From positions 1,240,001-1,304,000 of the forward strand of contig NZ_JAAGWY010000001.1 in the NCBI RefSeq assembly GCF_010686705.1: 64,000 nt of DNA. Reading direction: 5' to 3'. Positions 23,935 through 51,121 of this stretch are shown here, in pieces. This DNA comes from Leifsonia tongyongensis (GTDB lineage Bacteria; Actinomycetota; Actinomycetes; Actinomycetales; Microbacteriaceae). The notes below the pieces were generated by a model, which saw only the letters and a program-made list of their open reading frames with translations, did no database searches and had not been told where the DNA came from. A program made the position numbers and the translations under genes. Position 1 is the stretch's first letter, and each line of letters opens with the position of its first letter.

Positions 23935-24012
23935 GGTTCCAGCCTGCTCGGGATGCGGCGTGGTGGCTATCGGGGAAACCCCCCAACCGACCCTGAATCA
24001 TCCGTTCAGCGC

Positions 24013-26403: not shown

Positions 26404-26537
26404 TAGTCCATGCTCCGCACTGAGAATCCGCGAACTCGTCCGTTTGCCGTGATTTGAGTACTCCGGGCACAAGAGTTCAGTAGTGGATGCCCTTGCCTTA
26501 AGTAGTCGGCCCGTCCGTGCCGCGTAGAGTCGCACCT

Positions 26538-30416: not shown

Positions 30417-30441
30417 CATCGGGCCGGAGTCCCTTGTCTAA

Positions 30442-31713: not shown

Positions 31714-31718
31714 GATGT

Positions 31719-32645: not shown

Positions 32646-32667
32646 TTGGACTCTCCATGCGCCAACC

Positions 32668-34494: not shown

Positions 34495-34632
34495 TCGACC
34501 ATTCAATCAGAGGGAAGCTGAACCGCCGCTGTTGGCGGGTGTCCCCCATTTGGCCAGAATGCCATTTTGGTAAGGTTCCTAAGGCAGCGGGCCAGCTCGG
34601 CACGTACTCGCCGGTCAAGAGGTCAGGAAAAA

Positions 34633-35901: not shown

Positions 35902-37068
35902 TCACTCGCCCGTTGTCGCCAGGCGCGACGCAAGGAGTTCCAGTACGTGGGGATCACCCGGCTGAGCGCGCCATTTTGCAAAAGCCTCGCCAGCCCGTTC
36001 ACGCGCGATGAGGCGTTCTGCCGGCGATAGTGAGGCGTAGTCGTCGAGGGCGGCAGCCCATACCTCACCGGATCGATCGAGAACCCATCCGCCGCCATCT
36101 TCCAGAAGAGCGTTCCACGGCGTGTGAGGGCTGCACATGACCGGACAAGAGGCCGACAACGACTCGGCAATCACATGTCCGAAGTTCTCACCCGCTGTCG
36201 GCATCAGCAGCACTTCGTAGCCCGAAAGTGTCGAGCGGATGTCTGCCGGGTCGAGCATCCCGAGCAGGCGAACCGACGCGTTCTCCGGGAGCTCGCTTAT
36301 CAGTCGGCGGCAGAACTCGACGTATTGCGGATCTTCGGTCGGCCCGTAGACGTCGAGCTCGATTGTCGACTCCACCTGCGAGAGGGCTTCTAATGCGATA
36401 TGCAGACCTTTGTGCTCCACCAGGCGACCCAGAAAGGCTGCCCGAAGCCCAGGTGCGGCTCCAGAAGTGATTCTTGGCGACAGAGCGGTTTGAGGAAGAA
36501 GTGTCTCGTTCTGTCTAATAAGGATCGTTGATTGACCGCCCCATAGCCGACGGATGTCGTCCGCCTCAAATTCCGACGACGCGTGCCAGTACAGACCGCG
36601 ATGGAGGCCGAGCGCTCTGTAGACGCTGAGGAAAGTTCTCTTCTTGAGCGAACGTCGACCCAGTGCGTTCAACCCGAACTCGCCTCGGGGTGCGAGAAGT
36701 CTGACGGTGCGACCCCAATACCTGACACGCCAAAGTAGTTGCGGCAGGATTGAGAACTTGAAGTCGAAGAAGCCGTTGAGATACAGCACTTCGGGGTGAC
36801 GGGATTTCAGGGCCCGGTAGCCGCGAAACAGCCCTCTGATCGAAGTGGCCGACGCGTAGTAGACGCTCGCATCATGATGTTTCAGCCACTGGTCGCTCCT
36901 AACGGGCAAGCGGTCCCTTGAGCCGAGATCGTGGTCTGACGTGAGCACGCTCAGCGGGAAGCCGCTCGGGGCCGCCTCGACTAACGCCTCCAGGGTTCGA
37001 ATGGGTCCTCCGCCGAGCTTTGCCGGCGGAAAGAGGGGGGCGAAAAGGGCGACAACTTGCGACTTCAT
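35902..37068 (-). CDS. GT4-family glycosyltransferase
   Basis: A 388-residue GT-B enzyme. The N-terminus VVALFAPLFPPAKLGGGPIRTLEAL has the flexible Gly loop. The donor domain contains RAAFLGRLVEHKGLHIALEAL and the E-x7-E-like motif MPTAGENFGHVIAESLSASCPV. No membrane segment. Last gene of the long minus-strand operon, 55 nt after the CapG gene. It likely adds one of the later sugars of the repeat; donor unknown. Confidence 0.88.
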   Translation of the reverse strand: MKSQVVALFAPLFPPAKLGGGPIRTLEALVEAAPSGFPLSVLTSDHDLGSRDRLPVRSDQWLKHHDASVYYASATSIRGLFRGYRALKSRHPEVLYLNGFFDFKFSILPQLLWRVRYWGRTVRLLAPRGEFGLNALGRRSLKKRTFLSVYRALGLHRGLYWHASSEFEADDIRRLWGGQSTILIRQNETLLPQTALSPRITSGAAPGLRAAFLGRLVEHKGLHIALEALSQVESTIELDVYGPTEDPQYVEFCRRLISELPENASVRLLGMLDPADIRSTLSGYEVLLMPTAGENFGHVIAESLSASCPVMCSPHTPWNALLEDGGGWVLDRSGEVWAAALDDYASLSPAERLIARERAGEAFAKWRAQPGDPHVLELLASRLATTGE

Positions 37069-37123
37069 CGGACGCCTAGTCGGTCCAGGCCCGCATTTGC
37101 TCGCGCGTTAGTTGTGCGTGGGT

Positions 37124-38257
37124 TCACCCTCGGATCCCTGCCCGTTCATGGTGACGAGTTGCCGTCGACATGATGAAGGAGACAGTTCGCCATGCGGTGT
37201 CGTCGATCTGATACTCCGCGGGGATGTCGGGAATCGAAGCCAGCTCGCGGCGGGCGAGAACAAGCTTCACACCAGCCAACATGTCCGAGCCGCGCACACC
37301 GACGGTCAGGATCGATCCGGTGTCCAGCGCCTCGGGCCGCTCGATCGAGTCGCGCAGTGTGACGGCGGGGAAGCCCAGGATGCTCGACTCCTCGCTGATC
37401 GTCCCGCTGTCGGAGAGCACCAGCTTCGCCGACTGCTGCAGTTTCACGTAGTCGTTGAAGCCGAAGGGCGGGTGGAACAGCAGTTTTGATTTCAGGTCGT
37501 CCGGTTGGGCTTCCAGGCGCTTGCGAGTTCTTGGGTGCGTCGACACCAGAACGGGCACGCCATACTCGTCGGCGAGCAGGCCTAGGCCCCCCAACACCGA
37601 GGCAAGGCGCGCGGGGTTGTCCACGTTCTCTTCGCGGTGCAGGCTCACGAGGAAGAACTCACCCTCAGCCAGCCCCTGACGCTGAACGACGTCGCTCGCC
37701 GCGATCGCCGACGCATTTGCTTCGAGCACCTCGCGCATAGGCGAACCGGTCAGGAGGATGCGTGACGGGTGGATGCCCTCGGCGAGCAGGTTGCGTCGGG
37801 CGTGCTCGGTGTAGACGAGGTTGTAATCAGCCACATGGTCGACCATGCGACGGTTGACCTCTTCGGGCACGTTCTCGTCGAAGCAGCGGTTGCCCGCCTC
37901 CATGTGGTAGACGGGAATCTTCATCCGTCGCGCCATTAGGGCCGAGATGCAGCTGTTGGTGTCTCCGAGCACAAGCATCGCATCCGGTCGCTCCTCGGCG
38001 AGCACAGCCTCGACCTTGGTAAGGACCGAGCCGAGCACGGCGCCGAGCGAGCTCGTGTCCGCACTGAGAAAGTGGTTCGGCCGGCGCAGGCCGAGATCTT
38101 CGAAGAAGACCTCGTTGAGCTCGTAGTCGTAGTTCTGGCCGGTGTGCACGAGCACGTGGTCGGTGAGCCGATCGAGAAGCTTGATCGTCGCGGCCAGTCG
38201 GATGATCTCCGGTCGTGTGCCGACGACGGTGAGCACCTTCAAACGCTTGTTGGTCAT
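37124..38257 (-). CDS. capG: UDP-HexNAc 2-epimerase of the CapG/WbjD type
   Basis: Third enzyme of UDP-N-acetyl-L-fucosamine synthesis: 2-epimerisation of UDP-N-acetyl-L-pneumosamine/talosamine-type intermediates. KVLTVVGTRPEIIRLAATIKLLD opens the fold. VHTGQNYDYELNEVFF, VLGDTNSCISALMARR and HMEAGNRCFDENVPEEVNRRMVDH follow and match CapG more closely than WecB. 377 aa. ATG 38257 overlaps the CapF stop by 4 bp. The gene completes a CapE-CapF-CapG set in order. Confidence 0.88.
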   Translation of the reverse strand: MTNKRLKVLTVVGTRPEIIRLAATIKLLDRLTDHVLVHTGQNYDYELNEVFFEDLGLRRPNHFLSADTSSLGAVLGSVLTKVEAVLAEERPDAMLVLGDTNSCISALMARRMKIPVYHMEAGNRCFDENVPEEVNRRMVDHVADYNLVYTEHARRNLLAEGIHPSRILLTGSPMREVLEANASAIAASDVVQRQGLAEGEFFLVSLHREENVDNPARLASVLGGLGLLADEYGVPVLVSTHPRTRKRLEAQPDDLKSKLLFHPPFGFNDYVKLQQSAKLVLSDSGTISEESSILGFPAVTLRDSIERPEALDTGSILTVGVRGSDMLAGVKLVLARRELASIPDIPAEYQIDDTAWRTVSFIMSTATRHHERAGIRG

Positions 38258-39351
38258 ACTGGCTCCGCAATCGTGTCTGGGCGCTCGGGATCGAACAGCT
38301 CGTTCGACCAGAAAGATGTGTACAGGTCTGCTTCGCCGACGTTCGTGATGTTGTGTGCCCACATCGTCGGCATGTCGATGCTCGCAGGGGACTCGCCGAC
38401 CACACGAAACTCGTGGACTTGCGTCGAGAACAACTTGCGCAGCTTGATGGTCGCCTCGCCCGACAGAACGGTGAACCGCTCGACTTTACGGCGGTGATAG
38501 TGGTCGCCGCGAGTTACCCCGCTGACCGTGGTCGAGAACGAGCTCTGGCCGGCACCGCCCTGGGAACGGACGATCTCGAAGAACGACCCGCGGTTGTCCG
38601 CGTGACGCTGCAGCGAAATCGGCGTTCCCTCGGGGAAAGCTGCTGCACGGTAGGTGTTGAAAAGGTCACGCTCGAACGGGTGCGCAATGTCGGGGATCTC
38701 GCCACCGCGCGAATACACGCTCGCGATGTCGCCGAGCCTTGCGAGGAGGCCGGTCACCGTCTCGCGTTCCTCCAGATCGGAGAGCTGATCGGCCTCGACG
38801 AACCCGAGGAGGGCATCCGCTGCGTTCTGCGCGTGCAGGAGCGACAGCTCGCGGTCTTGGTCGATCACCGGACGCCCGCCGGTGGCCAGCAGGTGGCTGA
38901 ACGTGGCGACGACCGAATTGTAGAAGGGGCGGCCGTGCTCGCCGAACAGGTTCGGCAGGCGCAGGTCCACGAAGGTCGCGCCCACACGTTCGGCAGCGCT
39001 GCGCAGGATGTCGGCCGCCACTCGCTTCGCGGTGCCGTATGCGCTGTCATTGTCGGCCTGGATCGAGTTGGCGAATACGACGACGGACGGTGCTGGTGCC
39101 GCCTGCTCAAGAGCGCTCGCGAGCTGCTCGGCGAAGCGGACGTTCCCACCGACCACTTCTTCGTCCGACGCGCGATTAACGCCGGCGACGTGGATGAGGC
39201 GGTCGGTCCCAGAGATGGCCCCAGTTGCAGCGGCAAGGTTGAAGCCGTCTCCGACAGCGATGGTCGTAACCGGGATTCCCTGCGCGTGAGCGGCGCAGCG
39301 GGTATGCCACCCGAGGAATCCGTTCGCTCCGGTCAGTGAAACGCTGGTCAC
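38254..39351 (-). CDS. capF: CapF/WbjC-type bifunctional UDP-sugar reductase
   Basis: Two domains. Residues 1-240 form an SDR (SLTGANGFLGWHT; AYGTAKR with the catalytic Tyr-Lys), and residues 245-365 form a cupin whose metal site is RGDHYHRRKVERF with MPTMWAHNITNVG. In CapF the cupin does a C3 epimerisation and the SDR an NADPH reduction on the way to UDP-L-FucNAc. 365 aa is normal for the family. GTG 39351 overlaps the CapE stop by 4 bp, and its stop overlaps the CapG start. All key motifs look intact. Confidence 0.9.
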   Translation of the reverse strand: MTSVSLTGANGFLGWHTRCAAHAQGIPVTTIAVGDGFNLAAATGAISGTDRLIHVAGVNRASDEEVVGGNVRFAEQLASALEQAAPAPSVVVFANSIQADNDSAYGTAKRVAADILRSAAERVGATFVDLRLPNLFGEHGRPFYNSVVATFSHLLATGGRPVIDQDRELSLLHAQNAADALLGFVEADQLSDLEERETVTGLLARLGDIASVYSRGGEIPDIAHPFERDLFNTYRAAAFPEGTPISLQRHADNRGSFFEIVRSQGGAGQSSFSTTVSGVTRGDHYHRRKVERFTVLSGEATIKLRKLFSTQVHEFRVVGESPASIDMPTMWAHNITNVGEADLYTSFWSNELFDPERPDTIAEPV

Positions 39352-40403
39352 ACGGCATCCGATCGCTCAGGCGTCAGGCCGGCCGCGAAGAGCTCCTCCT
39401 GGACTTCGGGCAGACCCAGCAGCATGTCTTCGACCTCGCCGACCGACAGGCGCACAGTGGTGTGGGAGTCGTAGTCGCTGTACTCGGTCTGCTTCGTATC
39501 GCCTTCTTCGACGTAGACACTGTAGTTGAGGTCGCGCTTGTCGGCCGTGATACGGAAGTACTCTCCCATGTCAGTTGCCCGTGAAAGCTCCTCGCGGCTC
39601 GCCAGAACTTCGGACACCTTTTCTGCATGGCGCGTGCCGATCACGTTGATGTCGGCCTTCACGCGGAACAGGTTCGACAGGGCCTGGGCGAGATCGCCGA
39701 TAGTGCATGACGGAGCCTTGCGGATGAAGAGGTCGCCCTGCTCGGCGTTGACGAAGGCGAATTCGACGAGGTCGACCGAATCTTCGAGCGACATCATGAA
39801 CCGCGTCATCGCCGGGTTGGTGACGGTCAGACGCCCGCCGGCCCGGAGCTGCCGGATGAACAGCGGGATGACCGACCCGCGGGAGTACATGACGTTGCCG
39901 TAGCGAACGCACGACACGACGGTCTCAGCATGAGGGTTGTTCAGGCCATGCGACTGCGCGACCTTCTCCATCATGGCTTTTGTCATTCCCATGGCGTTGA
40001 CCGGGTAGACCGCTTTGTCAGTGCTGAGGCACACCAGTGACTTGACGCCCGAGGCCTCGGCCGCCCTGACGACGTTCTCGCTGCCGATGACATTCGTCTT
40101 GACGGCTTCCATCGGGAAGAACTCGCACGACGGCACCTGCTTCAGTGCCGCAGCGTGGAAGACGTAGTCGACGTCCTTCGAGGCACGCTCGACGCTCAGG
40201 TAGTCGCGCACGTCGCCGACGTAGAAGCGGACGCGCGAGTCGCCGAGCTCGTGGCGCATCAGATCCTGTTTGGCTTCGTCACGGCTGAGGATCCGGATCT
40301 CGGCGACATCGCGCGTGAGGAGTTTGCGCGCGACAGTGTGACCGAACGAACCGGTACCGCCGGTGATCAGGATTCGCTTGCCTGCGTAGTCCGTCGTAGT
40401 CAT
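39348..40403 (-). CDS. capE: CapE/WbjB-type UDP-GlcNAc 4,6-dehydratase/5-epimerase
   Basis: First enzyme of UDP-L-FucNAc synthesis. ILITGGTGSFGHTVARKLL is the NAD-binding loop. The catalytic region reads STDKAVYPVNAMGMTKAMMEK; the Met-containing active site with Lys (MGMTK) is typical of CapE and FlaA1. VRYGNVMYSRGSVIPLF and the acidic C-terminus are also as in CapE. 351 aa. ATG 40403 has GGAGAAGGA upstream. Overlaps CapF by 4 bp. Confidence 0.91.
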   Translation of the reverse strand: MTTTDYAGKRILITGGTGSFGHTVARKLLTRDVAEIRILSRDEAKQDLMRHELGDSRVRFYVGDVRDYLSVERASKDVDYVFHAAALKQVPSCEFFPMEAVKTNVIGSENVVRAAEASGVKSLVCLSTDKAVYPVNAMGMTKAMMEKVAQSHGLNNPHAETVVSCVRYGNVMYSRGSVIPLFIRQLRAGGRLTVTNPAMTRFMMSLEDSVDLVEFAFVNAEQGDLFIRKAPSCTIGDLAQALSNLFRVKADINVIGTRHAEKVSEVLASREELSRATDMGEYFRITADKRDLNYSVYVEEGDTKQTEYSDYDSHTTVRLSVGEVEDMLLGLPEVQEELFAAGLTPERSDAV

Positions 40404-40463
40404 TCCTTCTCCATGCTTGTTGCGTGATTCATCTGGTTCAGTTCGTGGGGCGCCATCGAGCGC

Positions 40464-41528
40464 TCATGCCCGGTATTCCGGGAAGAAACCTTGGCGAAGA
40501 GGCTCCGCCTGTTCGGCCTGGCGATGCTCAACGAGCCTACGGTAGGAGTCCGGATCGATGATCCGCATACCGACGGCGAAGGGGCGGATCCCGTTCGGGG
40601 CGAACGCCCGCTTGTACCTGAAGATCCCGTCTCCGGCCTCGTAGCCGCCACCGAGAACGAACCAGCGCCGACCGCTCTCTGCCAACCAGCGCATGACTTC
40701 GTACTTCAGCAGGTCGTTCGGTCGTACGGCGAAGGCGTGGTCGAGCGTTCCGCCGAGGAACGAATACCCGCTCTCCTGCGACAGCAACACCAACTCGGTC
40801 GAGATGACCGCGCCGTCGAGTAACGCGTGGAAGTAGGCGAATTGACCGGGCATTTCGCGGTGGATCGCTTCGAAGAACTCCCGCTGGAAGTAGTACCCGC
40901 CATCCGCACCGCGCCGATCCATCGTGGCTTCGTAGATCGCGATGAACTCGTCGAACCGGCTCCCGGTCGTGTCGACCTCGACGACTACCCCCGAGCGCTG
41001 CGCCTTCTTGACGTTCTTGCGCACCTTCTGGTCGAAACTCATCCACAGCGCGTCCGGCTCGAGCCCGAGATCGCACACGACGTTGTCTTGTCTCACCTCG
41101 ACGGTTCCCGGGTAGGACAGCAGGGATTCGTCAAGCACACTGAGGCGGAGGAATTCCGAAACGACGCCTTGCCGCTCGGACCACTCGGTGAACGCCCCCC
41201 AGAAGTCCCCGGAAAGCGACTGGTCGTCAGTGACGTTCCATGCGTAGGCGCCTCCGTAGCCGTACGGTGTCACGATGTCCGTGAGAGCCGTGTCGTCCTC
41301 GTCGACCCCTGACAGGCGTACGTCACGCAGGATGAACGGGAAGAGTACAGACCCGGTCGGCGACTCCCACACGGCGCAATATGGACGCCCCACGCCTTCC
41401 GCGAAGAGCGACACATACGACGGATGGGCGTGAACCTCCCGTTGGGGCCAGCTCTCCCAGAGTCGCAGCCAGTCGGGACGTTCGGACGGTTTCGTCGCAT
41501 CCAGTACACGAAGGGATGCCGTGGTCAC
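40464..41528 (-). CDS. FemAB/GNAT-like acyl- or aminoacyltransferase
   Basis: A 354-residue protein with a doubled GNAT fold of the FemAB/Acetyltransf_6 type. QKVRKNVKKAQRSGVVVEV and FDEFIAIYEATMDRRGADGGYYF are typical of FemAB-like enzymes, followed by GYSFLGGTLDHAFAVRPNDLLKYEVMRWL. Such enzymes attach amino acids or acyl groups to amines, including amino sugars in polysaccharides. GTG 41528 overlaps the upstream aminotransferase stop by 4 bp, so the two may work on the same sugar. Acyl donor unknown. Confidence 0.78.
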   Translation of the reverse strand: MTTASLRVLDATKPSERPDWLRLWESWPQREVHAHPSYVSLFAEGVGRPYCAVWESPTGSVLFPFILRDVRLSGVDEDDTALTDIVTPYGYGGAYAWNVTDDQSLSGDFWGAFTEWSERQGVVSEFLRLSVLDESLLSYPGTVEVRQDNVVCDLGLEPDALWMSFDQKVRKNVKKAQRSGVVVEVDTTGSRFDEFIAIYEATMDRRGADGGYYFQREFFEAIHREMPGQFAYFHALLDGAVISTELVLLSQESGYSFLGGTLDHAFAVRPNDLLKYEVMRWLAESGRRWFVLGGGYEAGDGIFRYKRAFAPNGIRPFAVGMRIIDPDSYRRLVEHRQAEQAEPLRQGFFPEYRA

Positions 41529-42490
41529 GACTGATCGCCCATCGCCAGGTGGCGCCGGAAGGATTCGAGCATCCCGTCGACATCCGCAACACGTACATCC
41601 TGATGAACGGGGAAGTTGATGATGTGGCGGGAGAGCTCCTCGAGCACTTCGAAACGGCCGCGAACCTGCTCGATCAGCGTGTGGTACAGACTCACCATGC
41701 CGTAACCGTCCGCGTTCATCCCTGCATAGATCGCGTCACGCCTATCGCTGAGGATCCGGACGGGAAGGGTCTGAGGGACATCGTCGTCGCCGAGGTGCTC
41801 CCACAAGAAGTCGAAATCGCGCCCGCACTCGGGAAGGGCGGCGAGACGCTCACTCAGGACCAGGAAGTTCTCCCGTCGAGCCCGGGCGATCGTCGCCCAG
41901 TCATAGTCGAGGATGCGCTGCGCCAGTTCGGGACGGGTCTGGGCCTGACCCCGGAGGAGGTCCGTGGTCGCATACTGGACCATTCCGCCGTCGTCGAACG
42001 GGAACATCTTGTGAAGGGAGAAGAGGTTGAGGTGCCCGTGGCGTCCGGCCGTACCGCCCGACAGTGCCGTGAAGAATCCGTGGGCGAGGTCCTCTACGAC
42101 GAGCGCACCGGTGGCGTCGGCGAGCGTACGAATGGCCGCGAGACGGGGCTCGGTGCGCCCGTAATAGTGAATGATCACGACCACCCGGTAGGAATCCGTG
42201 CTGAGGCGGCGCTCAAGGTCATCGACGTCGACCGTCAGGTCGGGGTTCAGGTTGTAGAAGCCGGCCTGGGCGCCCACGCTCAGAACGGGGTCGAGCACTC
42301 CGCTGCCCTCGCGCGGCGAAAGGCCGATGAAAGCCGGCAACAGCACTCCGTCGTCCGGTGAGGCAAGGGTGTGGGCGAGAAAGTCGCGCATTCCTTCGCG
42401 GGCCGACCCGTAGAAGAGCGATGGCCTCCGGCCGGTGTCCTGGTCGCGGGCGGTCTTGGTCACGATCGGCCGCACGGTTTCGTTCCTCAT
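41525..42490 (-). CDS. DegT/DnrJ/EryC1-like PLP aminotransferase, short form
   Basis: A 321-residue protein shorter than usual sugar aminotransferases (about 370-400). The fold-I features remain: VLLPAFIGLSPREG, VVVIIHYYGRTEPR, VVEDLAHGFFTALSG (Asp-x-Ala-His) and LFSLHKMFPFDDGGMVQYA with the PLP Lys. Some loops of the large domain are reduced, so it may have a changed substrate. ATG 42490 overlaps the GNAT stop by 4 bp; the long upstream extension is a shadow. It is linked to a FemAB-like enzyme downstream. Confidence 0.78.
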   Translation of the reverse strand: MRNETVRPIVTKTARDQDTGRRPSLFYGSAREGMRDFLAHTLASPDDGVLLPAFIGLSPREGSGVLDPVLSVGAQAGFYNLNPDLTVDVDDLERRLSTDSYRVVVIIHYYGRTEPRLAAIRTLADATGALVVEDLAHGFFTALSGGTAGRHGHLNLFSLHKMFPFDDGGMVQYATTDLLRGQAQTRPELAQRILDYDWATIARARRENFLVLSERLAALPECGRDFDFLWEHLGDDDVPQTLPVRILSDRRDAIYAGMNADGYGMVSLYHTLIEQVRGRFEVLEELSRHIINFPVHQDVRVADVDGMLESFRRHLAMGDQS

Positions 42491-43257
42491 CGTGTTGGTC
42501 GACCTTCGTCGAGGGCTAGCGACATCCGGTCGGACACCAGGAGAACGTCGTGCGGGGTGAGGATTTCGTGGACCTCGGATTCCGCCACCACTGCGAATGC
42601 CGTGTCCAGTCGGCCGAAGACCGCGGAGACGCCCCCGAGGATCGCGTCGTCTTCGAATGTCGCTCGGTCGAAGCACCGCAGGACGCGGTCACCCATCAGC
42701 CCGACGCGGACGGGACGCTCCGACGAGACCACGTTCAGCTCGCAGAACCCATAAACCTCATACGCCGCGAGTGATACGGCGAGGGCACTGATGGGCAGCG
42801 GGTCGGTGGCGTGCGGAAGCGCGCGAGTGACCCAGCAGGAAGCGGATTCCACCGTGAATCCCCAACGGGCGTAGAGAGCACGAGCCGCCGAGTTGTCACG
42901 GAAGGTGTCGAGCTTGACCGTGGTCAGGTGCGGATGCTCCGCAAGGAAGCGGTCGAACATCATCGTGGCGACACCCTTGCCACGCGCCGCCGGGTCGACG
43001 CAGATGTATGACAGGAAGCCGACCCCGTCGCCTCTGATTGTGAAATCAGCGAAACCGATGGGCGCATCCGAGCTCTCGTCCGTCGCGACGATGAGGAAAC
43101 GAGGCTCGACAGACAGCGGATAACGCAGCGCGACCTCGAGGAATCGACCGATTCCCCGTTGGGCGTAGGTCATGAACGGCCAGAGGGCAGGTGCGAAAGA
43201 GTTCTTCACCATGTCGGTGACGGCCGGCACATCCTCTGTTGAAAGAAGACGGATCAT
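42487..43257 (-). CDS. GNAT-family N-acetyltransferase
   Basis: A 256-residue protein: an N-terminal GNAT domain (residues 1-150; IRLLSTEDVPAVTDMV, then the acetyl-CoA loop VDPAARGKGVATMMFDRFL and ARALYARWGFTVESASCW) and a C-terminal extension of about 100 residues that may be a degenerate second GNAT domain. It may N-acylate the 4-amino sugar made by the PglF-like and PglE-like enzymes. Left-handed-helix PglD enzymes usually do this job, so the assignment is inference. ATG 43257 overlaps the upstream stop by 4 bp. Confidence 0.78.
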   Translation of the reverse strand: MIRLLSTEDVPAVTDMVKNSFAPALWPFMTYAQRGIGRFLEVALRYPLSVEPRFLIVATDESSDAPIGFADFTIRGDGVGFLSYICVDPAARGKGVATMMFDRFLAEHPHLTTVKLDTFRDNSAARALYARWGFTVESASCWVTRALPHATDPLPISALAVSLAAYEVYGFCELNVVSSERPVRVGLMGDRVLRCFDRATFEDDAILGGVSAVFGRLDTAFAVVAESEVHEILTPHDVLLVSDRMSLALDEGRPTR

Positions 43258-45107
43258 TCCACCGAGGCCTTTGTTCGGGCGGTCGAGCGCTCGACATCGA
43301 GATTCGCCATCAACGACTCGGGATCTTCGACGACACCCGACCGTCTGAACACTCGCGCGACCGTCCGGCACAGGATGCGGAGGTCGAGTGCCAGCGAAAG
43401 ATTCTCGACATACGTGACGTCGTCAGCCAGCCGGGAATCCCACGAGGCCGTATTGCGCCCGTTGATCTGGGCGAGACCTGTGATCCCCGGGCGAACGTGG
43501 AGTCGGATCGACTCCTCGTCGGTGAAGTACTCGGTGTACCGGAGAAGAAGGGGGCGGGGACCGACGAGGGACATGTCCCCTCGAAGTACGTTCCACAGGC
43601 TGGGCAACTCATCCGCGCTCGTCGAACGGAGAAGGCGCCCGAAAGAAGTGAGCCGCTCTGCATCGGACAGGAGTGTGCCGGATGCATCTCGCTTGTCCGT
43701 CATCGTGCGGAACTTGATCATCTCGAACGGTTCACCATGGCGCCCAGGGCGCAACTGCCGGAAAATCACCGGTCGACCGAGTTTGAGGCGGACAGCGATG
43801 GCGATCACCCCGATCGGCACGGAGAAGAGCACAAGCGCGGCTCCTGAAACGACGATGTCGCCCAGTCGCTTGGGCCCGAGTACCCACGGCTTCGACAAGC
43901 TGGCCGTCCTCAGGACTTCGCCGAATCGTGCTGCGCCGACTTTCAGCGAGAGCTTCTCCTGGTAGAAGCGGGCGCCGGCTCGCCCCAGCTCTGCTCGCGC
44001 TTCGGGGGTGAGCGACATGAGCTCCGTGACAGCGTCGGCCAGTTGCGCGGGGCTTTCGGGCTCGAACACCTTTCCGGCTCCGGCGCATTCCACGAGGCGT
44101 GCTGCATCCCCTCTGACGGCCATCAGGATCGGCCGGCCGGCCATCAGGTATGCCTGTGTCTTCGAAGGAATCGTGATCTCGAACAGCGGTTCGTCCCTCA
44201 AGTGAACAAGCAGCGCATCCGATCGGGTCAGGATATTGCCCATCTCGGAGATGGGCCGGCGCGGAAGGAAGGTCACGTTCGCGAGCCCTCTTCGCCGCGC
44301 TTCCCGTTGGAGGTTCTCCGCTTCCAGGCCGCCACCCACGAAGACGAAACGGAGGCCCGTCTTTTCGCGCAGCAACCCTGCTGCGTCGAGAACAGACTCA
44401 AGTCCCTGCGCTTTGCCGAGGTTGCCGGCGAAGGTCACGATGAAGTCGTCACCGAATCCGAGATCTTCTGCTGGTTTGTCGGATGTGACAGAGACATCGA
44501 TCTGTGCCTCGTCCGCCCAGTTGTGGATGACCTCCACCTTCGACCTCGGTACCCCGCGAGTGGAGAGCGCTTCGCGGAAGCCGTCTGACAGGACGGCGAT
44601 TCGAGCTGCGCCCGAATACACCCCCTTCATGAAACGTCCGACGATGGCGAGCGCACGGGGATGCGTCAGCATTCCGGTCGCAGCCAGGGTGTCGGGCCAC
44701 AGATCTTGCACGTCGTAGACGTAGGGAACGCCTTTCAAGGCTTTCAGCACAACGGCGGGCAGACAGACGGTCGCCGGGGGATGGTACACGTACGCGACGT
44801 CGGGCCGGCCCATGGCGAGGACACCGACGGAGGCCGCAGCCGCAAAAGATACGTAGTTGGCGATGCGCTTCACCGCTGACCCATCGTGGCTCGGGTAGAG
44901 CGGTACCCGAAGCACCCGCACCCCACCGACGACTTCCCGACGGAAACCGGTCATCGTATAACCGTCGTAGAGCTTTCCACCCGGATAGTTCGGGTAGCCG
45001 GTGACGACTTCGACGTCGTGACCTTGCCGAATGAGCTCTTGCGCGAAGAGGAGCCCTTTGAAGGTCGGTTCGGGGTCGAACCACTGCGTGATCATCAGAA
45101 TTCTCAA
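43254..45107 (-). CDS. Fusion: WbuB-like GT4 glycosyltransferase plus initiating phosphoglycosyl transferase
   Basis: One 617-residue polypeptide with two enzymes. Residues 1-400 are a WbuB-like GT4 (QWFDPEPTFKGLLFAQEL, TGYPNYPGGKLYDGY, RVPLYPSHDGSAVKRIANY). Residues 408-600 are a monotopic phosphoglycosyl transferase: KRLGDIVVSGAALVLFSVPIGVIAIAV membrane hairpin, FRQLRPGRHGEPFEMIKFRTM, and the Asp-Glu dyad SADELPSLWNVLRGDMSLVGPRPL. The C-terminal part would load the first sugar on undecaprenyl phosphate, and the N-terminal part would add the second, probably FucNAc as in WbuB. TTG start at 45107 without a clear ribosome-binding site; its stop overlaps the GNAT start. Confidence 0.88.
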   Translation of the reverse strand: MRILMITQWFDPEPTFKGLLFAQELIRQGHDVEVVTGYPNYPGGKLYDGYTMTGFRREVVGGVRVLRVPLYPSHDGSAVKRIANYVSFAAAASVGVLAMGRPDVAYVYHPPATVCLPAVVLKALKGVPYVYDVQDLWPDTLAATGMLTHPRALAIVGRFMKGVYSGAARIAVLSDGFREALSTRGVPRSKVEVIHNWADEAQIDVSVTSDKPAEDLGFGDDFIVTFAGNLGKAQGLESVLDAAGLLREKTGLRFVFVGGGLEAENLQREARRRGLANVTFLPRRPISEMGNILTRSDALLVHLRDEPLFEITIPSKTQAYLMAGRPILMAVRGDAARLVECAGAGKVFEPESPAQLADAVTELMSLTPEARAELGRAGARFYQEKLSLKVGAARFGEVLRTASLSKPWVLGPKRLGDIVVSGAALVLFSVPIGVIAIAVRLKLGRPVIFRQLRPGRHGEPFEMIKFRTMTDKRDASGTLLSDAERLTSFGRLLRSTSADELPSLWNVLRGDMSLVGPRPLLLRYTEYFTDEESIRLHVRPGITGLAQINGRNTASWDSRLADDVTYVENLSLALDLRILCRTVARVFRRSGVVEDPESLMANLDVERSTARTKASVE

Positions 45108-45137: not shown

Positions 45138-46274
45138 TCACTCATGGGCGCACGCGAATCGCTCAAGGGCCGCGATCACGAACGCGACGTCCGCATCCGA
45201 CAGGGCCGACCCGCTCGGCAGGGTGACGCCGGTCTCGAACAGCCTCTGCGCATTGCCGTTGAGGGTGGACTGGGCCCCCGCGAACACGGGCTGCAGGTGC
45301 ATGGGCTTCCAGAGCGGACGGCTCTCGATGTCGTCGGCCGCGAGGGCCGCGCTGAGATCCGCGGCCGACCAGCCGGTCACCTCTGCGTCCACGACGACCG
45401 AGGTCAGCCAGCAGTTGTCGTCGCGGTCGTCGGCGCCGCCGAAGATCTCGACGCCGTCCACTGTTGCGAACAACGCGCGGTACCGGTCCCGTGTCGCGCG
45501 GCGCCTCGCCATCATGCCGTCGAGGCGCGTGAGCTGGGCGCGGCCGACCGCGGCCAACAGGTTCGAAAGCCGGTAGTTGTAGCCGATCTCCGTGTGCTCG
45601 TAGTGCACGGCAGGCTGCCGCGCCTGGGTGGCCAGGTAGCGCACCCGGCGGGCGAGGTCCGCGTCGTCGGTGAGCAGCATCCCTCCGCCGGAGGTCGTCA
45701 TGATCTTGTTGCCGTTGAACGAGATCGCTGACGCTGCACCGAACGCACCCGCCTGCTTGCCGGCATGGGATGCACCGAGCGCCTCCGCGGCATCCGCGAA
45801 CACAGGCACCCCGTAGGCGTCAGCGATCGGCTCGATGCGCGTGTAGTCGGCGGCCTTTCCGAGCAGGTCGACCGGTACGACGGCGGCGACATCCTCTCCG
45901 GCCATCCGCAGCTCGCCGAGCGCTCGCTCGAGCAGGTCGGGATCCATGTTGCCCGTCTCGAGCTCCGAGTCGACGAAGTGGGGGCGAGCGCCGGTGTAGG
46001 TGATCGCGTTGGCTGTCGCCGCGAACGTCAGGGTCGAGGTGACGACCACGTCACCGGGCTTGACCCCGAGGCAGAGGAGGCCGAGGTGCAGGGCTGCGGT
46101 GCCGGACGAGAGGGCGGCAGCGTGGGTGACGCCGACGCGGTCGGCCACTTCGCGTTCGAAGGCGTCGACATCAGGACCGAGCGGTGCGATCCAACCCGAC
46201 CGGAAGGCGTTGACGAGGTAGGTCTCCTCGAGCTCGCCGACATCAGGCGACGACATGAGGATGCGATCGTTCAC
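45138..46274 (-). CDS. PglE-like sugar 4-aminotransferase (DegT/DnrJ/EryC1/StrS)
   Basis: A 378-residue PLP enzyme. MSSPDVGELEETYLVNAFRSGWIAPLGPDVDAFE is the family start; VFADAAEALGAS and ISFNGNKIMTTSGGGML follow, with the PLP Lys. NYRLSNLLAAVGRAQL is present as well. It would aminate a 4-keto-6-deoxy UDP-HexNAc made by the next-upstream dehydratase. GTG 46274 overlaps that gene's stop by 4 bp. Confidence 0.9.
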   Translation of the reverse strand: MNDRILMSSPDVGELEETYLVNAFRSGWIAPLGPDVDAFEREVADRVGVTHAAALSSGTAALHLGLLCLGVKPGDVVVTSTLTFAATANAITYTGARPHFVDSELETGNMDPDLLERALGELRMAGEDVAAVVPVDLLGKAADYTRIEPIADAYGVPVFADAAEALGASHAGKQAGAFGAASAISFNGNKIMTTSGGGMLLTDDADLARRVRYLATQARQPAVHYEHTEIGYNYRLSNLLAAVGRAQLTRLDGMMARRRATRDRYRALFATVDGVEIFGGADDRDDNCWLTSVVVDAEVTGWSAADLSAALAADDIESRPLWKPMHLQPVFAGAQSTLNGNAQRLFETGVTLPSGSALSDADVAFVIAALERFACAHE

Positions 46275-48130
46275 TGGCGCTGCTCCTGTGGCGACCCCAA
46301 GGCGAGGCCCATCGTGTCGGTTGCGCCCTCGCGCACGCGCCTGAGCCACAGGTCGTGGTCGAGCTGGCCGACGGACAATGGGGCGATCCGGGTGTGCGAG
46401 ATCTTCGGATGCTTCGGTCGCGCGTCCGACTCGGCGCTGCCGATCAGGTCCTCGTGCAGCTTCTCCCCCTGGCGGAGCCCCGTGAAACGGATCTCGATGT
46501 CCTTGCCGCTGAAAGCGATCATGCGCTCGGCGATGTCGAGGATCCGTACCGGCTCGCCCATGTCGAGGATGAGCACTTCACCGGGTTCGCCGATCCCGCC
46601 CGCCTGCACGACGAGCTGGCACGCTTCGGGGATCGTCATGAAGTAGCGGGTGACATCAGGATGCGTGACCGTGAGCGGTCCGCCCGCGTCGATCAGCGAC
46701 TGGAAGGTGGGAAGCATCGAGCCGCGGCTGCCGATCACATTGCCGAACCGTACCGAGAGGTAGCGACCCTGCGCGTTCAACGCGGTGCCGGCCGTGAGCT
46801 TCTCCGCGATCCGCTTCGAATGCCCGAGCACGCTCGTGGGGTTCGCCGCCTTGTCCGTGGAGATGTTCACGAACGTGGAAACGTTCACATCGCTCGCCGC
46901 ATCCAGCACGTTCAACGTGCCGATCACGTTCGTCTTCCAGGCCTCATCCGGGTATTGCTCGAGCATCGGCAGGTGCTTGAGGGCCGCGGCATGGAACACG
47001 ACCTCGGGGCGACGGCGGTGGAAGATCTGCCGCAGTGCATCCGCGTCGCGGATGTCCGCAAGTACGACGTCGCTCGTGTCCAGCAGGCCGTGACCCGAGA
47101 TCGCGATCTGGGCGTTCTGCAGGCCGGTCTCGTCGCGGTCGAGCATGATGAGCTCGCCAGGAGCATACTTCGAGATCTGGCGGCACAGCTCCGATCCGAT
47201 CGAACCGCCGGCGCCGGTGACGAGTACGCGACGACCAGTGAGGTAGCTCGCGATGGCTGCGACATCCGTTTCGACGGGCTGCCGCCCGATCAGGTCCTCG
47301 ATGGCGATGTCGCGCACATCCGACAACTTCGACCGCCCGTCGACCACATCGTTGAGTGTAGGCAGCACCTTCACCTGAACCCCAGCGGGCTCGGCTATGT
47401 CCGTGATCGTGCGCAACAGGGCGGCATCCACACGTGCGATCGCAACGATGACGACCCTCGCGCCCGTCCGGTCGGCCACGTCCGGGAGGTCGCGTAGCCC
47501 GCCGAGGACGGGAACGCCGCGGATCAGCCGCTTCGCATTGACGGGGTTGTCGTCGAGGAGGGCGATGGGGAGATAGGGCGAATCCCGATCAGTGAGCATC
47601 CACTGCACGAGTGATCGCCCCATGTAGCCCGCCCCGAAGATCAGGGTCGGCTGGGCGCTGTCGCCCGGCTTCATGCGGTGCTCGACATAGAGGCGCTTCA
47701 CATAACGAGCGCCGCTCATCAGCACCAGCGCGAGAGGCAGGGCGATGAACATGACACTGCGCGGGAGCCAGAGTTCGTTACCGATGATGGCGATGGGGAG
47801 GCCCAGCGCGAGGGCGACGAGGCACGCCACGAACAGGAGCGAACGGAGCTCCTCGAAGCTGCCGTACGTGTGGCGGCCACGGTAGAGCGAGAAGGCGAGG
47901 CCGATCAGCAGCTGGCAGGCGACCGCTCCGGCTGCGACGAATGCCAGCGTCACATACGCCATGAACTCGAGGTCGAAGTCGTAACGGAGGACAGCCGCGC
48001 AATAGATCGCGACGATCCAGGCGGCGGCGTCAATGACGAACTGCGCACCGAAGCGCCGTAAGAGCGTCTCACCGCGCGAGCGAGTCTCTGCCCGCACCCG
48101 GTCGCTGAAAAGTCTGCCCATCACCGCCAT
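46271..48130 (-). CDS. Membrane UDP-GlcNAc 4,6-dehydratase (PglF/WbpM/CapD family)
   Basis: A 619-residue inner-membrane enzyme. Four N-terminal helices (residues 30-145), a CoA-binding-like Rossmann domain (TLIFGAGYMGRSLVQWML), then the SDR dehydratase domain (VLVTGAGGSIGSELCRQI; NISTDKAANPTSVLGHSKRIAEKL as the active-site region). It would make UDP-4-keto-6-deoxy-GlcNAc for the PglE-like enzyme. Here the usual Met of the catalytic region is replaced by Leu (VLGHSKR, commonly MG.SKR). ATG 48130 overlaps the upstream stop by 10 bp; ATG 48121 is an alternative. Confidence 0.91.
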   Translation of the reverse strand: MAVMGRLFSDRVRAETRSRGETLLRRFGAQFVIDAAAWIVAIYCAAVLRYDFDLEFMAYVTLAFVAAGAVACQLLIGLAFSLYRGRHTYGSFEELRSLLFVACLVALALGLPIAIIGNELWLPRSVMFIALPLALVLMSGARYVKRLYVEHRMKPGDSAQPTLIFGAGYMGRSLVQWMLTDRDSPYLPIALLDDNPVNAKRLIRGVPVLGGLRDLPDVADRTGARVVIVAIARVDAALLRTITDIAEPAGVQVKVLPTLNDVVDGRSKLSDVRDIAIEDLIGRQPVETDVAAIASYLTGRRVLVTGAGGSIGSELCRQISKYAPGELIMLDRDETGLQNAQIAISGHGLLDTSDVVLADIRDADALRQIFHRRRPEVVFHAAALKHLPMLEQYPDEAWKTNVIGTLNVLDAASDVNVSTFVNISTDKAANPTSVLGHSKRIAEKLTAGTALNAQGRYLSVRFGNVIGSRGSMLPTFQSLIDAGGPLTVTHPDVTRYFMTIPEACQLVVQAGGIGEPGEVLILDMGEPVRILDIAERMIAFSGKDIEIRFTGLRQGEKLHEDLIGSAESDARPKHPKISHTRIAPLSVGQLDHDLWLRRVREGATDTMGLALGSPQEQRQ

Positions 48131-49107
48131 GTCACGCCACCATCCGTCGACTTGACCACTGTGTCACCCGACCACATCCACAACGTACCGCCGCCGTTTG
48201 CGACCGAAACCCCTCCCGCGGGCGGTTTGGTGCTTGTGGCACAACCGCCGGCGGCCTGAGCGGTGCCGCCGTCGAAGCTCGTCGTCGCGGTGCCGGCGCA
48301 TCCCTGCCGACCCGTGACCGCCAGGACGTATCCGTTGCCGGCCGTGGAGATCGCGACCGCTCCAGTGACCGGAACCGCCTGACCCCAGGCCGCGCCGGCG
48401 TTGCCGGTGACGTGGACGTCGTGGTTCGCGCACAGCACTGCCGCATTGGCGGGGTCGCGCACGGCCACACCGATGACGGCCGCGCACGGGGCCTGTACGT
48501 CACCGGTCGGCGTGTGAACGACGCTGCGCTTTGTCGCATCCACATACCACGAACCGGCCAGCTGGTCGGGGTAGGCCGCCCAGTTGTCGCCGGCGACATA
48601 GGTGCGGATGTACTGGGGCGCGCAGCCTTGCGACGCGAGCGTGATAGCGCTGGCCTGCTTCGCGGACTGAACGGAGATGGCGAGGATCGAGGATGCACCG
48701 GTCGGCCCTGCCGCGTCGGTGGGCTTCCAGTTGGCGCCGCCGTCCGTCGTGATCTCGGGGGACGCGGGGGTGGCAGGGCATGGCCCGGTGGATGCGCGCC
48801 ACGCGGTCGAACCGTCGAGTGCGGCGAGCACCCGGGTGGGCGCAACGGCGTCGGCGGCCGGCGTGCTGGTCGGTTTCGGGGTCGCGCTCGCTGTCGGCTT
48901 CGGCGTCGCGGAAGGCGTCTGCGCTACCGTCGTCGAACTCGTCGCGACCGGTACGGTGGCGTCAGGTGGCGTGCGCGCGGCGACCAGCGCCCACACCACG
49001 AGGATCACGTCGAGGAGGGCGAGCACGATCACGCCGGCGATGGCGACGTGGTGGCGGTTCCACCCGGGCTGCGTAGCCGGGTCCCTCTTCTTTGCTGCGG
49101 CTGCCAT
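48121..49107 (-). CDS. Membrane-anchored BNR/beta-propeller-like protein of the polysaccharide operon
   Basis: A 328-residue protein: short cytoplasmic N-terminus, one membrane helix (VAIAGVIVLALLDVILVVWALVAA, about residues 21-44), a Thr/Pro/Ser-rich linker (ATPKPTASATPKPTSTP), then an outer domain. ITTDGGANWKPTD and VKSTDGGVTWR are sialidase/BNR-type Asp-box repeats at its two ends. Several Cys residues suggest disulfides. No sialidase catalytic set is visible. Its place between the phosphatase and the dehydratase genes suggests a role in export, trimming or recognition of the polymer. Function unknown. Confidence 0.72.
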   Translation of the reverse strand: MAAAAKKRDPATQPGWNRHHVAIAGVIVLALLDVILVVWALVAARTPPDATVPVATSSTTVAQTPSATPKPTASATPKPTSTPAADAVAPTRVLAALDGSTAWRASTGPCPATPASPEITTDGGANWKPTDAAGPTGASSILAISVQSAKQASAITLASQGCAPQYIRTYVAGDNWAAYPDQLAGSWYVDATKRSVVHTPTGDVQAPCAAVIGVAVRDPANAAVLCANHDVHVTGNAGAAWGQAVPVTGAVAISTAGNGYVLAVTGRQGCAGTATTSFDGGTAQAAGGCATSTKPPAGGVSVANGGGTLWMWSGDTVVKSTDGGVTWR

Positions 49108-49112
49108 CGGTC

Positions 49113-49706
49113 CTACTCGAATCCCGCTGCTGCGCGCGTGAGCGTCAGGGCGATGGACTGGACGGCGGGCACGAGTTGCCGGGTCGACTCGGCGTACACG
49201 TTGTCATCCTGACGGTACGGGTCGACGACGTCGTCCTCTTCAGGATTGTCCGGGCGCTCGGCCACGCCGCGGTTCGCAGAAGCGATCTCCACGAGCGTGC
49301 TGAGTCGTGCCCGCGCGTCGGGCTGCGCTGCGATGGTGTCGCGGTCGTCCGTGTTCACGGTCTCGAGCAGGCGCGCGAACTCGCGGAGGGTGAACGCGGA
49401 ACGGGATGCGCGGGGCAGGGTTTCAACAACAACGCGCCGGTGTTCCCGGCTCAGCGCGAGCACGAGATCGGCGTCGCGCAGGTGCTCGACGGTCAGCTGG
49501 CGTGCGACATGCGCATCCGGAATCCCGCCGTACTGCCGCGAGTACTCAGCTGCCCGCTCATCCATGGGACGCCCGATGAGCGCGGCAGTGCCTGCGCTGC
49601 TCAACGTGACGGCGAGACCGTCGAGGCCCGCCCGCAACAACTGCTCGGCGAGCGGGGAACGACAGATGTTCCCCGTGCACACGGTCAGGATGCGAAACTC
49701 GTTCAC
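49113..49706 (-). CDS. Low-molecular-weight protein tyrosine phosphatase (Wzb-like)
   Basis: A 197-residue cytoplasmic phosphatase. The P-loop VCTGNICRSP (Cys 10, Arg 16) is intact, and the general-acid Asp is probably in VVDPYRQ near the C-terminus. It would dephosphorylate the Tyr cluster of the BY-kinase encoded just upstream. GTG 49706 overlaps the kinase stop by 4 bp, so the two are made together. The much longer open frame to 50117 is a shadow of the kinase gene. Confidence 0.9.
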   Translation of the reverse strand: MNEFRILTVCTGNICRSPLAEQLLRAGLDGLAVTLSSAGTAALIGRPMDERAAEYSRQYGGIPDAHVARQLTVEHLRDADLVLALSREHRRVVVETLPRASRSAFTLREFARLLETVNTDDRDTIAAQPDARARLSTLVEIASANRGVAERPDNPEEDDVVDPYRQDDNVYAESTRQLVPAVQSIALTLTRAAAGFE

Positions 49707-51121
49707 ACCTGTGCCGCCCGGCGGATTCGCTTCTCGATGACCGATTCGTCTTCGAACTCGTTCTGCACGCCGTAGCCGTAGACGCCGTAGCCGTTGGAGT
49801 CCGGGCCCTTGGTCGGCAGCATGGTGACGATGACTCCGACGAGCCGGCTGCCGATGTGCTCGAGTGCGCGCACCGCCGCGGCGAGCTCGTTCTTCTTCGT
49901 GACGCCGGACGCTGCAGCGATGATCGCGCCGCCGGTGAGCTTGCTGACGACGGCGGCATCGGTGACGAGCAGGAGCGGAGGTGCGTCGACGAGCACATAG
50001 TCGAACTCGGCGGTCAGTGTGTTGAGCAGCTGTGACATGGCGTTCGAGCCCAGCAGTTCGCTCGGGTTCGGCGGAATGCGGCCGGCCGGCAGGATGTACA
50101 GCTCGCCGCGGCCCCATTTGTGCATCACATCGGCGAGTGGCGTCCGCCCGATGAGCACGTCGGTGAGGCCGACGGCGCCCTCGACGCCCATGTAGTCGGC
50201 GACCTTCGGCAGGCGCAGGTCGCCGTCGATCAGTGCGACTCGCGCGCCTGTCTCGGCCAGGCTGATCGCGAGGTTCGCCGCCGTGGTGCTCTTGCCCTCA
50301 CCCGGGATCGAGCTGGTGATGACATAGCTGCGCGGTCCGTTGCCGAAGTTGACGAATTGAAGGTTCGTGCGGAGGCTGCGGAACGACTCAGCGCGTGGGT
50401 TGCGCGGGTCGGCGTGCACGATCAGCGGACGCTTCTTCGCGCCCGGGTCGTAGCTGATCGCACCGAGGATCGGTCTGTCGGTCACGTCTTCGATGTCGTG
50501 CGAGTTGTGGATGCGTGTGTCGAGGATGCTGCGAAGCAGGCTCACGCCGACACCGACGGCCAGGCCGATCAGAAGCCCGAGGATGATGTTGAGGGGGACG
50601 TTCGGGCTGGTCGGCTTCGACGGGGCGACAGCAGGCTGAATCGTCTGGATGTTGATGAGGCTTGTTCCGCCTGTGGGCTTCTCGAGCTCGTTCGTCACGA
50701 CATAGGAGGTGTTCTGGCCGATCGAGTTTGCGATGTTCGCTGCCAGCTGCGGGTTGCTGTCAGTGACCGTGATGTCGATCAGCACCGTGTTCAGGGGCGA
50801 GTCGGCGGTCACCTTGGGAGCGAGTGCCGTGGCGGTCGTCTTGAGGTGCAGGTCGTCGATGACCCGATCGAGGACGCTCGCGCTGTTCACCACGCTGACG
50901 TAGCTGGTGACGGCCTGTCGGGCGAAGCTCGTGCCCTGGACGAGGTCAGTTGCCGCACCGGAATTACCTGCACGAACGGAGACGTACAGTTCGGTCGATG
51001 CCTGGTACTTCGGGGTGAGCGTCAACGAGTAGCCGGCCGCGATGGCGACGCCCAGAAGGGTGGCTACCGCGATGAAGATCCAATTCTTATGAAGGATCCT
51101 CACGTAGTCACGCAGCTCCAA
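49703..51121 (-). CDS. Fused Wzz chain-length regulator and BY-kinase (tyrosine autokinase)
   Basis: Head gene of the polysaccharide operon. A Wzz domain has two membrane helices (residues 14-34 and 178-198) and an outer loop. A cytoplasmic BY-kinase follows: Walker A SSIPGEGKST (270-279), Walker A' ALIDGDLRLP (296-305), then DYVLVDAPPLLLVTDA. The C-terminal Tyr cluster is short (YGVYGYG, about 448-454). Gram-positive bacteria often split these parts; here they are one 472-residue chain. TTG start at 51121 with GGGAGG 5 nt upstream. Kinase and phosphatase together tune polymer length and export. Confidence 0.92.
   Translation of the reverse strand: MELRDYVRILHKNWIFIAVATLLGVAIAAGYSLTLTPKYQASTELYVSVRAGNSGAATDLVQGTSFARQAVTSYVSVVNSASVLDRVIDDLHLKTTATALAPKVTADSPLNTVLIDITVTDSNPQLAANIANSIGQNTSYVVTNELEKPTGGTSLINIQTIQPAVAPSKPTSPNVPLNIILGLLIGLAVGVGVSLLRSILDTRIHNSHDIEDVTDRPILGAISYDPGAKKRPLIVHADPRNPRAESFRSLRTNLQFVNFGNGPRSYVITSSIPGEGKSTTAANLAISLAETGARVALIDGDLRLPKVADYMGVEGAVGLTDVLIGRTPLADVMHKWGRGELYILPAGRIPPNPSELLGSNAMSQLLNTLTAEFDYVLVDAPPLLLVTDAAVVSKLTGGAIIAAASGVTKKNELAAAVRALEHIGSRLVGVIVTMLPTKGPDSNGYGVYGYGVQNEFEDESVIEKRIRRAAQV

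Follow-up and report, generated by a model that had tools for sequence, protein, structure and literature searches.

A Leifsonia reading frame joining a GT4 glycosyltransferase to a PglC-like phosphoglycosyl transferase: a probable two-step enzyme of repeat-unit assembly

The fused reading frame

The subject of this analysis is one gene of a polysaccharide cluster of Leifsonia tongyongensis, in which a glycosyltransferase of family GT4 and a monotopic phosphoglycosyl transferase (PGT) are encoded in a single frame. The window is the whole stretch of DNA analysed, 64,000 nucleotides long (assembly GCF_010686705.1, contig NZ_JAAGWY010000001.1, positions 1,240,001 to 1,304,000 of the forward strand), and coordinates are counted from its first letter. 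The fused gene and its parts are as follows:

43254-45107, minus strand: GT4–PGT fusion protein, 617 aa, TTG start (Pfam, PDB match, AlphaFold model, intact relatives)
43896-45107, minus strand: N-terminal GT4 (GT-B) half, residues 1 to about 404 (Pfam; fold match to MshA and PglA; clade motif)
43872-43895, minus strand: junction of about eight residues (405-412), between GT4 helix 388-403 and the PGT domain
43308-43871, minus strand: C-terminal monotopic PGT half, about residues 413-600 (Pfam, PDB match, catalytic residues, model)

The frame runs from 45107 to 43254 with a TTG start, a TGA stop and no stop inside; read on the plus strand in the given register, the same interval holds three stops. 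An earlier note on this DNA had described a single intact two-domain protein of 617 residues here, which was borne out, the strand being minus. Three Pfam domains exceeded their curated cut-offs: Glyco_trans_4_4 (residues 22-197, E 1.2e-22), Glycos_transf_1 (219-379, 2.8e-15) and Bac_transf (PF02397; 413-587, 2.1e-58; 197 bits vs a cut-off of 27). The top NCBIfam models, all under their curated cut-offs, were polyprenyl glycosylphosphotransferases for the C-terminal part and the WcaI family for the GT4 half. The stop codon and the start codon of a GNAT gene overlap in the letters ATGA, and a PglE-type gene ends 30 bases upstream, so the fusion gene probably sits within an operon.

An AlphaFold model of the whole chain (83 aligned rows) had a mean predicted local distance difference test score (pLDDT) of 94.7 and a predicted template modelling score (pTM) of 0.90. 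A GT-B fold is present in its N-terminal half, in keeping with the GT4 Pfam domains; structure alignment of this half gave Z 35.8 with MshA (root-mean-square deviation (rmsd) 3.3, 372 residues) and Z 31.7-31.8 with Campylobacter concisus PglA (rmsd 4.1-4.3, 357-358 residues). The signature of its GT4 clade, VHLxx(D/E)PLFxITIPSKTQAY, lies at residues 301-320; K316 within it is invariant, in 45/45 aligned rows.

Among solved structures, C. concisus PglC (8g1n, E 9e-53; 48-50 % identity in the Foldseek rows) comes closest to the C-terminal part, with WbaP behind it. D499, E500, P517, R518 and P519 are each kept in 51/51 aligned PGT rows, K413 in 50 and R414 in 47. With PglC as best solved match and the catalytic DE and PRP residues in place, the PglC-like PGT proposed in the earlier note is confirmed. 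In the model, the last GT4 helix (388-403) is followed almost directly by helices 407-427 and 429-443, the arrangement to which a re-entrant membrane helix like that of PglC would give rise; this would be their topology as predicted from the model. K413-R414 match the PglC Lys-Arg motif given in passages of PMC6133551. Both ends of the PglC membrane helix are described there as cytoplasmic, so a soluble glycosyltransferase at the N-terminus should pose no topological problem for the PGT.

In the parts of PMC10942596 and PMC10653937 concerned, three kinds of monotopic PGT are distinguished: small, large and bifunctional, the last with extra domains at either end. The N-terminal part of the fusion has a GT-B fold and no four-helix membrane bundle with a domain of unknown function (DUF), the architecture of the large PGTs WbaP and WcaJ; it adds a functional domain, GT4 (residues 1-404), to the PGT within one chain, as bifunctional PGTs do. 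At E <= 0.001 the genome gave one further PGT-like match, about 700 kb distant; it forms the end of a 613-aa frame, which is probably a large-type PGT. No solved structure with both domains was found among the sequence matches or among the Foldseek and VIA-align matches listed (50 rows each), which is no proof of absence.

Relatives, gene order and repeated fusion

Genomes of the family, order and phylum were searched, with three to four candidates scored per genome. Among the matches listed, full-length matches of the same layout were found in 3/299 family genomes belonging to three genera: the genome itself, G055 (73 %) and G148 (61 %). Among the matches scored, 396 genomes of the order gave only the fusion described here, and 396 genomes of the phylum added a single divergent fusion (G966, 35 %). 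The search also covered one other genome of the genus (G028), where GT4 and PGT are separate genes. Further single-frame relatives were found in Nocardioides (L062), Microbacterium marinilacus (L063) and two Variovorax. The database search for the same domain order that the earlier note had called for thus yielded single-frame relatives in two other genera of the family, Microbacterium, Nocardioides and Variovorax.

These relatives bear on the possibility that the fusion is a sequencing or assembly artefact. Separate genes do outnumber fused ones among the best 80 related loci (32 vs 10, see below), but the same fused frame occurs in five actinobacterial assemblies, the present one included, which form one clade, and in two Variovorax. 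Intact fused relatives in independent genomes rule out the missed frameshift between the domains against which the earlier note had warned; an origin by frameshift or misassembly was rejected, and its probability is negligible.

Genomes of 84,980 species were scanned with two patterns, both in the GT4 half, and the best 80 of at least 591 stretches were kept; ranking by match to the fusion favours fused and adjacent pairs. Ten of these loci carry GT4 and PGT in a single frame, 32 have GT4 and PGT genes as neighbours in that order within 250 nt, and three have them 250-1500 nt apart; five show another arrangement and 30 have no PGT above threshold. All 14 fused frames examined have the order GT4–PGT. 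No PGT-first fusion was found in the 90 loci examined, a weak absence as the loci were gathered with the fusion as query. The earlier note had stressed that the domain order is reversed relative to the order of reactions. The order is as described; a special meaning for it was rejected, because in 32 of the best 80 loci the two genes are separate, no more than 250 nt apart, and already so arranged.

Trees were built for each half by a quick procedure, with support from the Shimodaira–Hasegawa-like approximate likelihood ratio test (SH-aLRT) only; in the trees, "adjacent" means within 330 nt, compared with 250 nt in the locus counts. The GT4 tree covers 86 of 90 loci, four low-scoring non-adjacent GT4s being left out, and its 14 fused rows require seven changes of state, all seven forced by starred branches. 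The PGT tree covers 59 of 90 loci, leaving out 31 without a paired PGT above 140 bits; 27 of its 56 branches are open, and its fused rows likewise require seven changes, three of them forced. The GT4–PGT fusion arose repeatedly, and some of the changes between the fused and separate states may be losses.

The actinobacterial fusions (the present one, G055, G148, Microbacterium marinilacus and Nocardioides) group as a single clade (98*) on the GT4 tree and share one group (91) with L064 and the long-branched L081 on the PGT tree. The present one is placed next to Microbacterium in the trees. The two Variovorax fusions are placed away from them in both trees. The four unfused family copies examined have the gene order PglF-PglE-PGT-x-GT4-CapE-F-G. 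Descent of the fusion from an unfused pair within the family was considered and is not favoured, the fused GT4s grouping (98*) apart from these four copies. A second GT4 clade contains fusions as well (L086, L087, L088, L092, L098, L099 and L044), from Alloalcanivorax, Peptococcaceae, Prochlorococcus, Synechococcus, Rhodospirillaceae and another lineage of the phylum; no CapE, CapF or CapG was found in reach of the first six.

Neighbouring genes and candidate donor sugars

The genes around the fusion that received an assignment are as follows, with uridine diphosphate abbreviated as UDP and N-acetylfucosamine as FucNAc:

30442-31713, minus strand: Wzy_C-type polymerase/ligase (Pfam)
35902-37068, minus strand: further GT4 of the cluster, presumably for a later step (Pfam)
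37124-38362, minus strand: CapG-type 2-epimerase for UDP-L-FucNAc (Staphylococcus aureus CapG 7ya2, 395 bits; 1f6d, 118 bits)
38254-39351, minus strand: CapF/WbjC reductase (S. aureus Cap5F 2zkl, E 1.3e-50)
39348-40403, minus strand: CapE/FnlA, UDP-GlcNAc 4,6-dehydratase/5-epimerase (4j2o, 416 bits; S. aureus CapE 3vvb, 409 bits)
40464-41528, minus strand: FemAB/GNAT-like acyl- or aminoacyl-transferase (Pfam)
41525-42676 (frame), minus strand: DegT-like aminotransferase homologue, partial match, true start probably further in (Pfam)
42487-43257, minus strand: GNAT acyltransferase, ATG start (Pfam; weak matches to RimI, WecD and other GNAT models)
45138-46349, minus strand: PglE-type aminotransferase for a UDP-4-amino sugar (best PDB match 1o61, 247 bits, which we take to be Campylobacter jejuni PglE; 4ztc and 7b0m close behind)
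46271-48130, minus strand: PglF-type 4,6-dehydratase (best PDB match 5bju, WlaL; PF02719)
49113-51121, minus strand: low-molecular-weight tyrosine phosphatase and Wzz/tyrosine-kinase-like chain-length protein, in overlapping frames (Pfam)

The LegC and PseC models match the PglE-type frame under their cut-offs, and the FnlA model matches the CapE/FnlA frame with 443 bits, under its cut-off of 730. The wecB model exceeds its cut-off for the CapG-type frame, as it does for the Escherichia coli gene that follows wbjC. CapE, CapF and CapG match S. aureus structures, which upholds the earlier note's view of them as makers of UDP-FucNAc. Because these three and the PglF- and PglE-type frames match solved enzymes, the cluster should be able to supply UDP-L-FucNAc and a UDP-4-amino sugar of the bacillosamine kind.

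The G+C content is 0.59-0.63 over much of the polysaccharide cluster (28001-42000), compared with 0.64-0.71 in other parts of the window, a difference that an acquired island would show. Four long frames had no Pfam match at 1e-5: 23668-25998 (plus), 25040-26470 (minus), 27943-29280 (plus) and 48121-49107 (minus); that at 27943-29280 might be the flippase of the cluster.

Loci were assigned to GT4 clades by score and motif so as to match the tree, and neighbouring CapE, CapF and CapG were counted above 140, 140 and 300 bits, respectively; flanks are limited, missing genes count as misses, and L001 (the window's own gene) and L044 stand outside the counts. In clade 1, to which the fusion belongs, CapE was present in 32/35 loci, CapF in 31/35 and CapG in 34/35. 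None of the three was found in the 31 loci of clade 2, mostly adjoining or fused to PGTs, or in the 22 of a third group. PglE-like and PglF-like frames, respectively, were found in 29 and 25 of 35 loci of clade 1, in 24 and 12 of 31 of clade 2, and in none and one of 22 of the third group.

Taken alone, this clade linkage could be a single inherited linkage, a reading broken by the switches on the PGT tree. There the GT4 clade switches 13 times, and the presence of CapE and CapG follows the switch in 6/6 independent pairs on starred branches (two-sided sign test, p 0.031; 58 of 59 rows, L044 left out and L001 coded by hand). A pair from Acinetobacter illustrates this: the PGTs of L080 and L125 are 88 % identical and their GT4s 29 %, and one locus has CapE, CapF and CapG and the other lacks them in the DNA examined, which suggests that a second-sugar module was replaced, along with its donor genes, and the first-sugar enzyme kept. 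Since CapE and CapG follow the GT4 partner on the PGT tree, and CapE, CapF and CapG all lie in the fusion's own cluster, UDP-L-FucNAc is supported as the probable donor of the GT4 half, with the PGT product as its acceptor.

For the PGT half, the best match to PglC and the adjoining PglF and PglE genes point to a UDP-sugar of the bacillosamine type as the likely donor. The earlier note had named UDP-N,N'-diacetylbacillosamine (UDP-diNAcBac); the bacillosamine type is retained, and diNAcBac itself is not certain, because a GNAT gene adjoins in place of PglD, the window holds no PglD-type frame and the nearest PglD-like gene lies about 680 kb away. PglF and PglE thus adjoin the fusion as they would for a diNAcBac-specific PglC, without the PglD that would complete the set. 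In the clade-1 loci, PglD-type frames (found with query frames that are PglD/NeuD-type by Pfam and NCBIfam; three such frames were identified by family models) occur in 21/35 and in 0/4 of those with the GNAT gene; the GNAT gene occurs in 4/35, all actinobacterial fusions other than the window's own, and 10/35 have neither in reach. Genes like the DegT-like and FemAB-like ones occur in 5/35, namely the four GNAT loci and L064 from Myxococcota. In L080 (Acinetobacter), the gap holds ATP-grasp and HAD genes and no PglD. The GNAT, DegT-like and FemAB-like genes of the window (40464-43257, minus strand) may be responsible for an unusual acyl or aminoacyl substituent of the 4-amino sugar.

Two lipid-linked steps in one chain

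The fusion is likely a two-step enzyme, in which the PGT half would start with D-QuiNAc4N-acyl and the GT4 half would add L-FucNAc; catalytic residues, precursor genes and the linkage of GT4 with CapE and CapG all support the earlier note's proposal that one chain starts and first extends the repeat unit. The protein would be attached to the membrane on the cytosolic face and catalyse the two initial lipid-linked steps in the assembly of a Wzx/Wzy-type repeat unit. In step 1, the C-terminal half, a monotopic PGT of the D499/E500 type, would move phospho-D-QuiNAc4N-acyl from UDP to undecaprenyl phosphate (Und-P), the sugar being of the bacillosamine type and supplied by PglF, PglE and probably the GNAT enzyme. 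In step 2, the N-terminal GT4 half would transfer L-FucNAc from UDP-L-FucNAc, made by CapE, CapF and CapG, to give Und-PP-D-QuiNAc4N-acyl-L-FucNAc. The fused gene would have originated by the joining of two genes that stood side by side in the order GT4–PGT.

Several points weigh against this two-step reading. Both activities, the donors, the acceptors, the order of reactions and the membrane topology are what we infer, and the linkage of GT4 with CapE and CapG is one of neighbourhood, not biochemistry, in loci gathered with the fusion as query. The clade-1 locus L083 has full flanks and no CapE, CapF or CapG; L068 has CapG and, in the DNA examined, no CapE or CapF. These are two of the three CapE misses in the clade, neither of them cut; the third, L070, is cut by a contig end. 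The second-best solved match of the CapG-type frame (4hwg, 366 bits) is named a UDP-GlcNAc 2-epimerase. In the PGT half, the turn between the two helices is S429-V430-P431, offset from the PglC Ser-Pro motif given in passages of PMC6133551. A phmmer search of the window with two PglD-type queries gave no PglD-type frame, and the nearest PglD-like gene of the genome, about 680 kb away, is 32 % identical to a Pseudomonas PglD-type protein. Between the GT4 half and the GT4 encoded at the wbuB position of E. coli, identity is only 27 %, so that of the "WbuB-like GT4" of the earlier note the GT4 domain stands and the likeness to WbuB is distant. In the EX7E motif of GT4 enzymes, which is not strictly defining for the family, a second glutamate is expected; here A319 takes its place. 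This missing glutamate would favour a protein with one catalytically dead half, serving only as a membrane anchor or regulator. That is quite improbable: A319 is kept in 32/45 aligned GT4 rows, the GT4 signature is conserved in fused and separate enzymes, the E. coli GT4 likewise lacks the second glutamate (it has Gly) and shares the P-x-K motif, and the PGT catalytic residues are intact.

The same fusion could instead use another donor in its GT4 half, such as UDP-GlcNAc, with L-FucNAc added later by the other GT4s of the cluster. The 27 % identity just given leaves room for this, two further GT4-type genes lie in the cluster, and in Bacillus subtilis the GT4 EpsD, whose acceptor is Und-PP-diNAcBac, takes UDP-GlcNAc as donor according to the relevant part of PMC10653937. 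Against it stand the tracking of CapE and CapG by the GT4 clade (32 and 34 of 35 loci vs 0/53) and the 6/6 contrasts on the PGT tree, and it is unlikely. The other question concerns the first sugar within the preferred two-step reading, which would be refined if that sugar were not diNAcBac but a QuiNAc4N whose 4-amino group carries a different acyl or aminoacyl residue, determined by the GNAT, DegT-like and FemAB-like genes. These genes accompany the actinobacterial fusions (4-5 of 35 clade-1 loci), PglD-type frames are missing from the window and from all four GNAT loci although 21/35 loci have them, and strains of Flavobacterium psychrophilum vary the same group, as described in part of PMC6519341. 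The extra genes could, however, modify a later sugar, 10/35 loci have neither PglD nor GNAT in reach, the distant PglD-like gene could serve, and PglC, the nearest match to the PGT half, is a diNAcBac enzyme. On balance, this refinement is given slightly less than an even chance.

More generally, fusion and adjacency might reflect a membrane-bound PGT–GT4 complex that passes the Und-PP-monosaccharide on directly, unreleased, and so commits scarce Und-P. The repeated joining (seven changes, 14/14 in the order GT4–PGT) and the adjacency kept despite GT4 swaps suggest such a complex; it is put forward only tentatively, as rather less probable than its absence, because fusion and adjacency fit co-expression and fixed stoichiometry as well as they fit the channelling that the earlier note had predicted.

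Comparable systems are cited here from the passages of each paper that describe them. The fusion fits the bifunctional class of PGTs (the Bi-PGT class of O'Toole et al. 2021, as PMC10942596 describes it), represented by Neisseria PglB (PMC6133551, PMC6959607), in which a PglC-type core likewise carries a second domain at one end. PglB differs in that its extra domain N-acetylates the sugar, an earlier step (PMC6959607; "aminotransferase domain" in PMC6133551), whereas the fusion has an N-terminal glycosyltransferase that would act after the PGT. In F. psychrophilum, a PglC homologue (WfpB) and a WbuB homologue (WfpA) are encoded with fnl, pglE and pglF genes, and transfer of L-FucNAc onto D-Qui2NAc4NR-PP-lipid is attributed by the authors from the genes and the solved O-polysaccharide (PMC6519341); these are two proteins and a PglD homologue gives the acyl group, the comparison being by description, not sequence. 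S. aureus CapM and CapL are a small monotopic PGT and a GT-B enzyme that then adds L-FucNAc from the CapE/F/G product in vitro (PMC6441080); they differ in being separate proteins with D-FucNAc as first sugar, CapL again being compared by description, not sequence. B. subtilis EpsL and EpsD combine a diNAcBac PGT with a GT4 enzyme, as separate proteins and with GlcNAc as second sugar (PMC10653937). The FucNAc transferase WbuB of E. coli is encoded by a GT4 gene directly after fnlA-wbjC-wecB(fnlC), wbuB being identified here by position only; it differs from the GT4 half in sequence (27 % identity), is not fused and has D-GlcNAc as acceptor (PMC6519341).

The bifunctional class has already been described and is not new in itself; the present analysis adds a putative next-step glycosyltransferase as the extra domain and the evidence for repeated fusion. 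No description of a GT4–PGT fusion was found in a literature search made without most subscription journals. O'Toole et al., in 2021, are said to have listed glycosyltransferase fusions. Fused PGTs being known, the architecture is unlikely to surprise specialists. If the two-step reading is true, Und-P could be converted into an Und-PP-disaccharide by one purified protein, which would be useful for glycans with L-FucNAc and bacillosamine, and would allow a direct test of whether the first two lipid-linked glycan steps are coupled. If the reading as a complex is also true, the fusion would be a ready single-chain system in which to solve and assay the PGT–GT4 complex. The contrasts on the PGT tree also suggest a genomic rule by which L-FucNAc-adding GT4s, those of the TIPSKTQAY-type clade, may be spotted.

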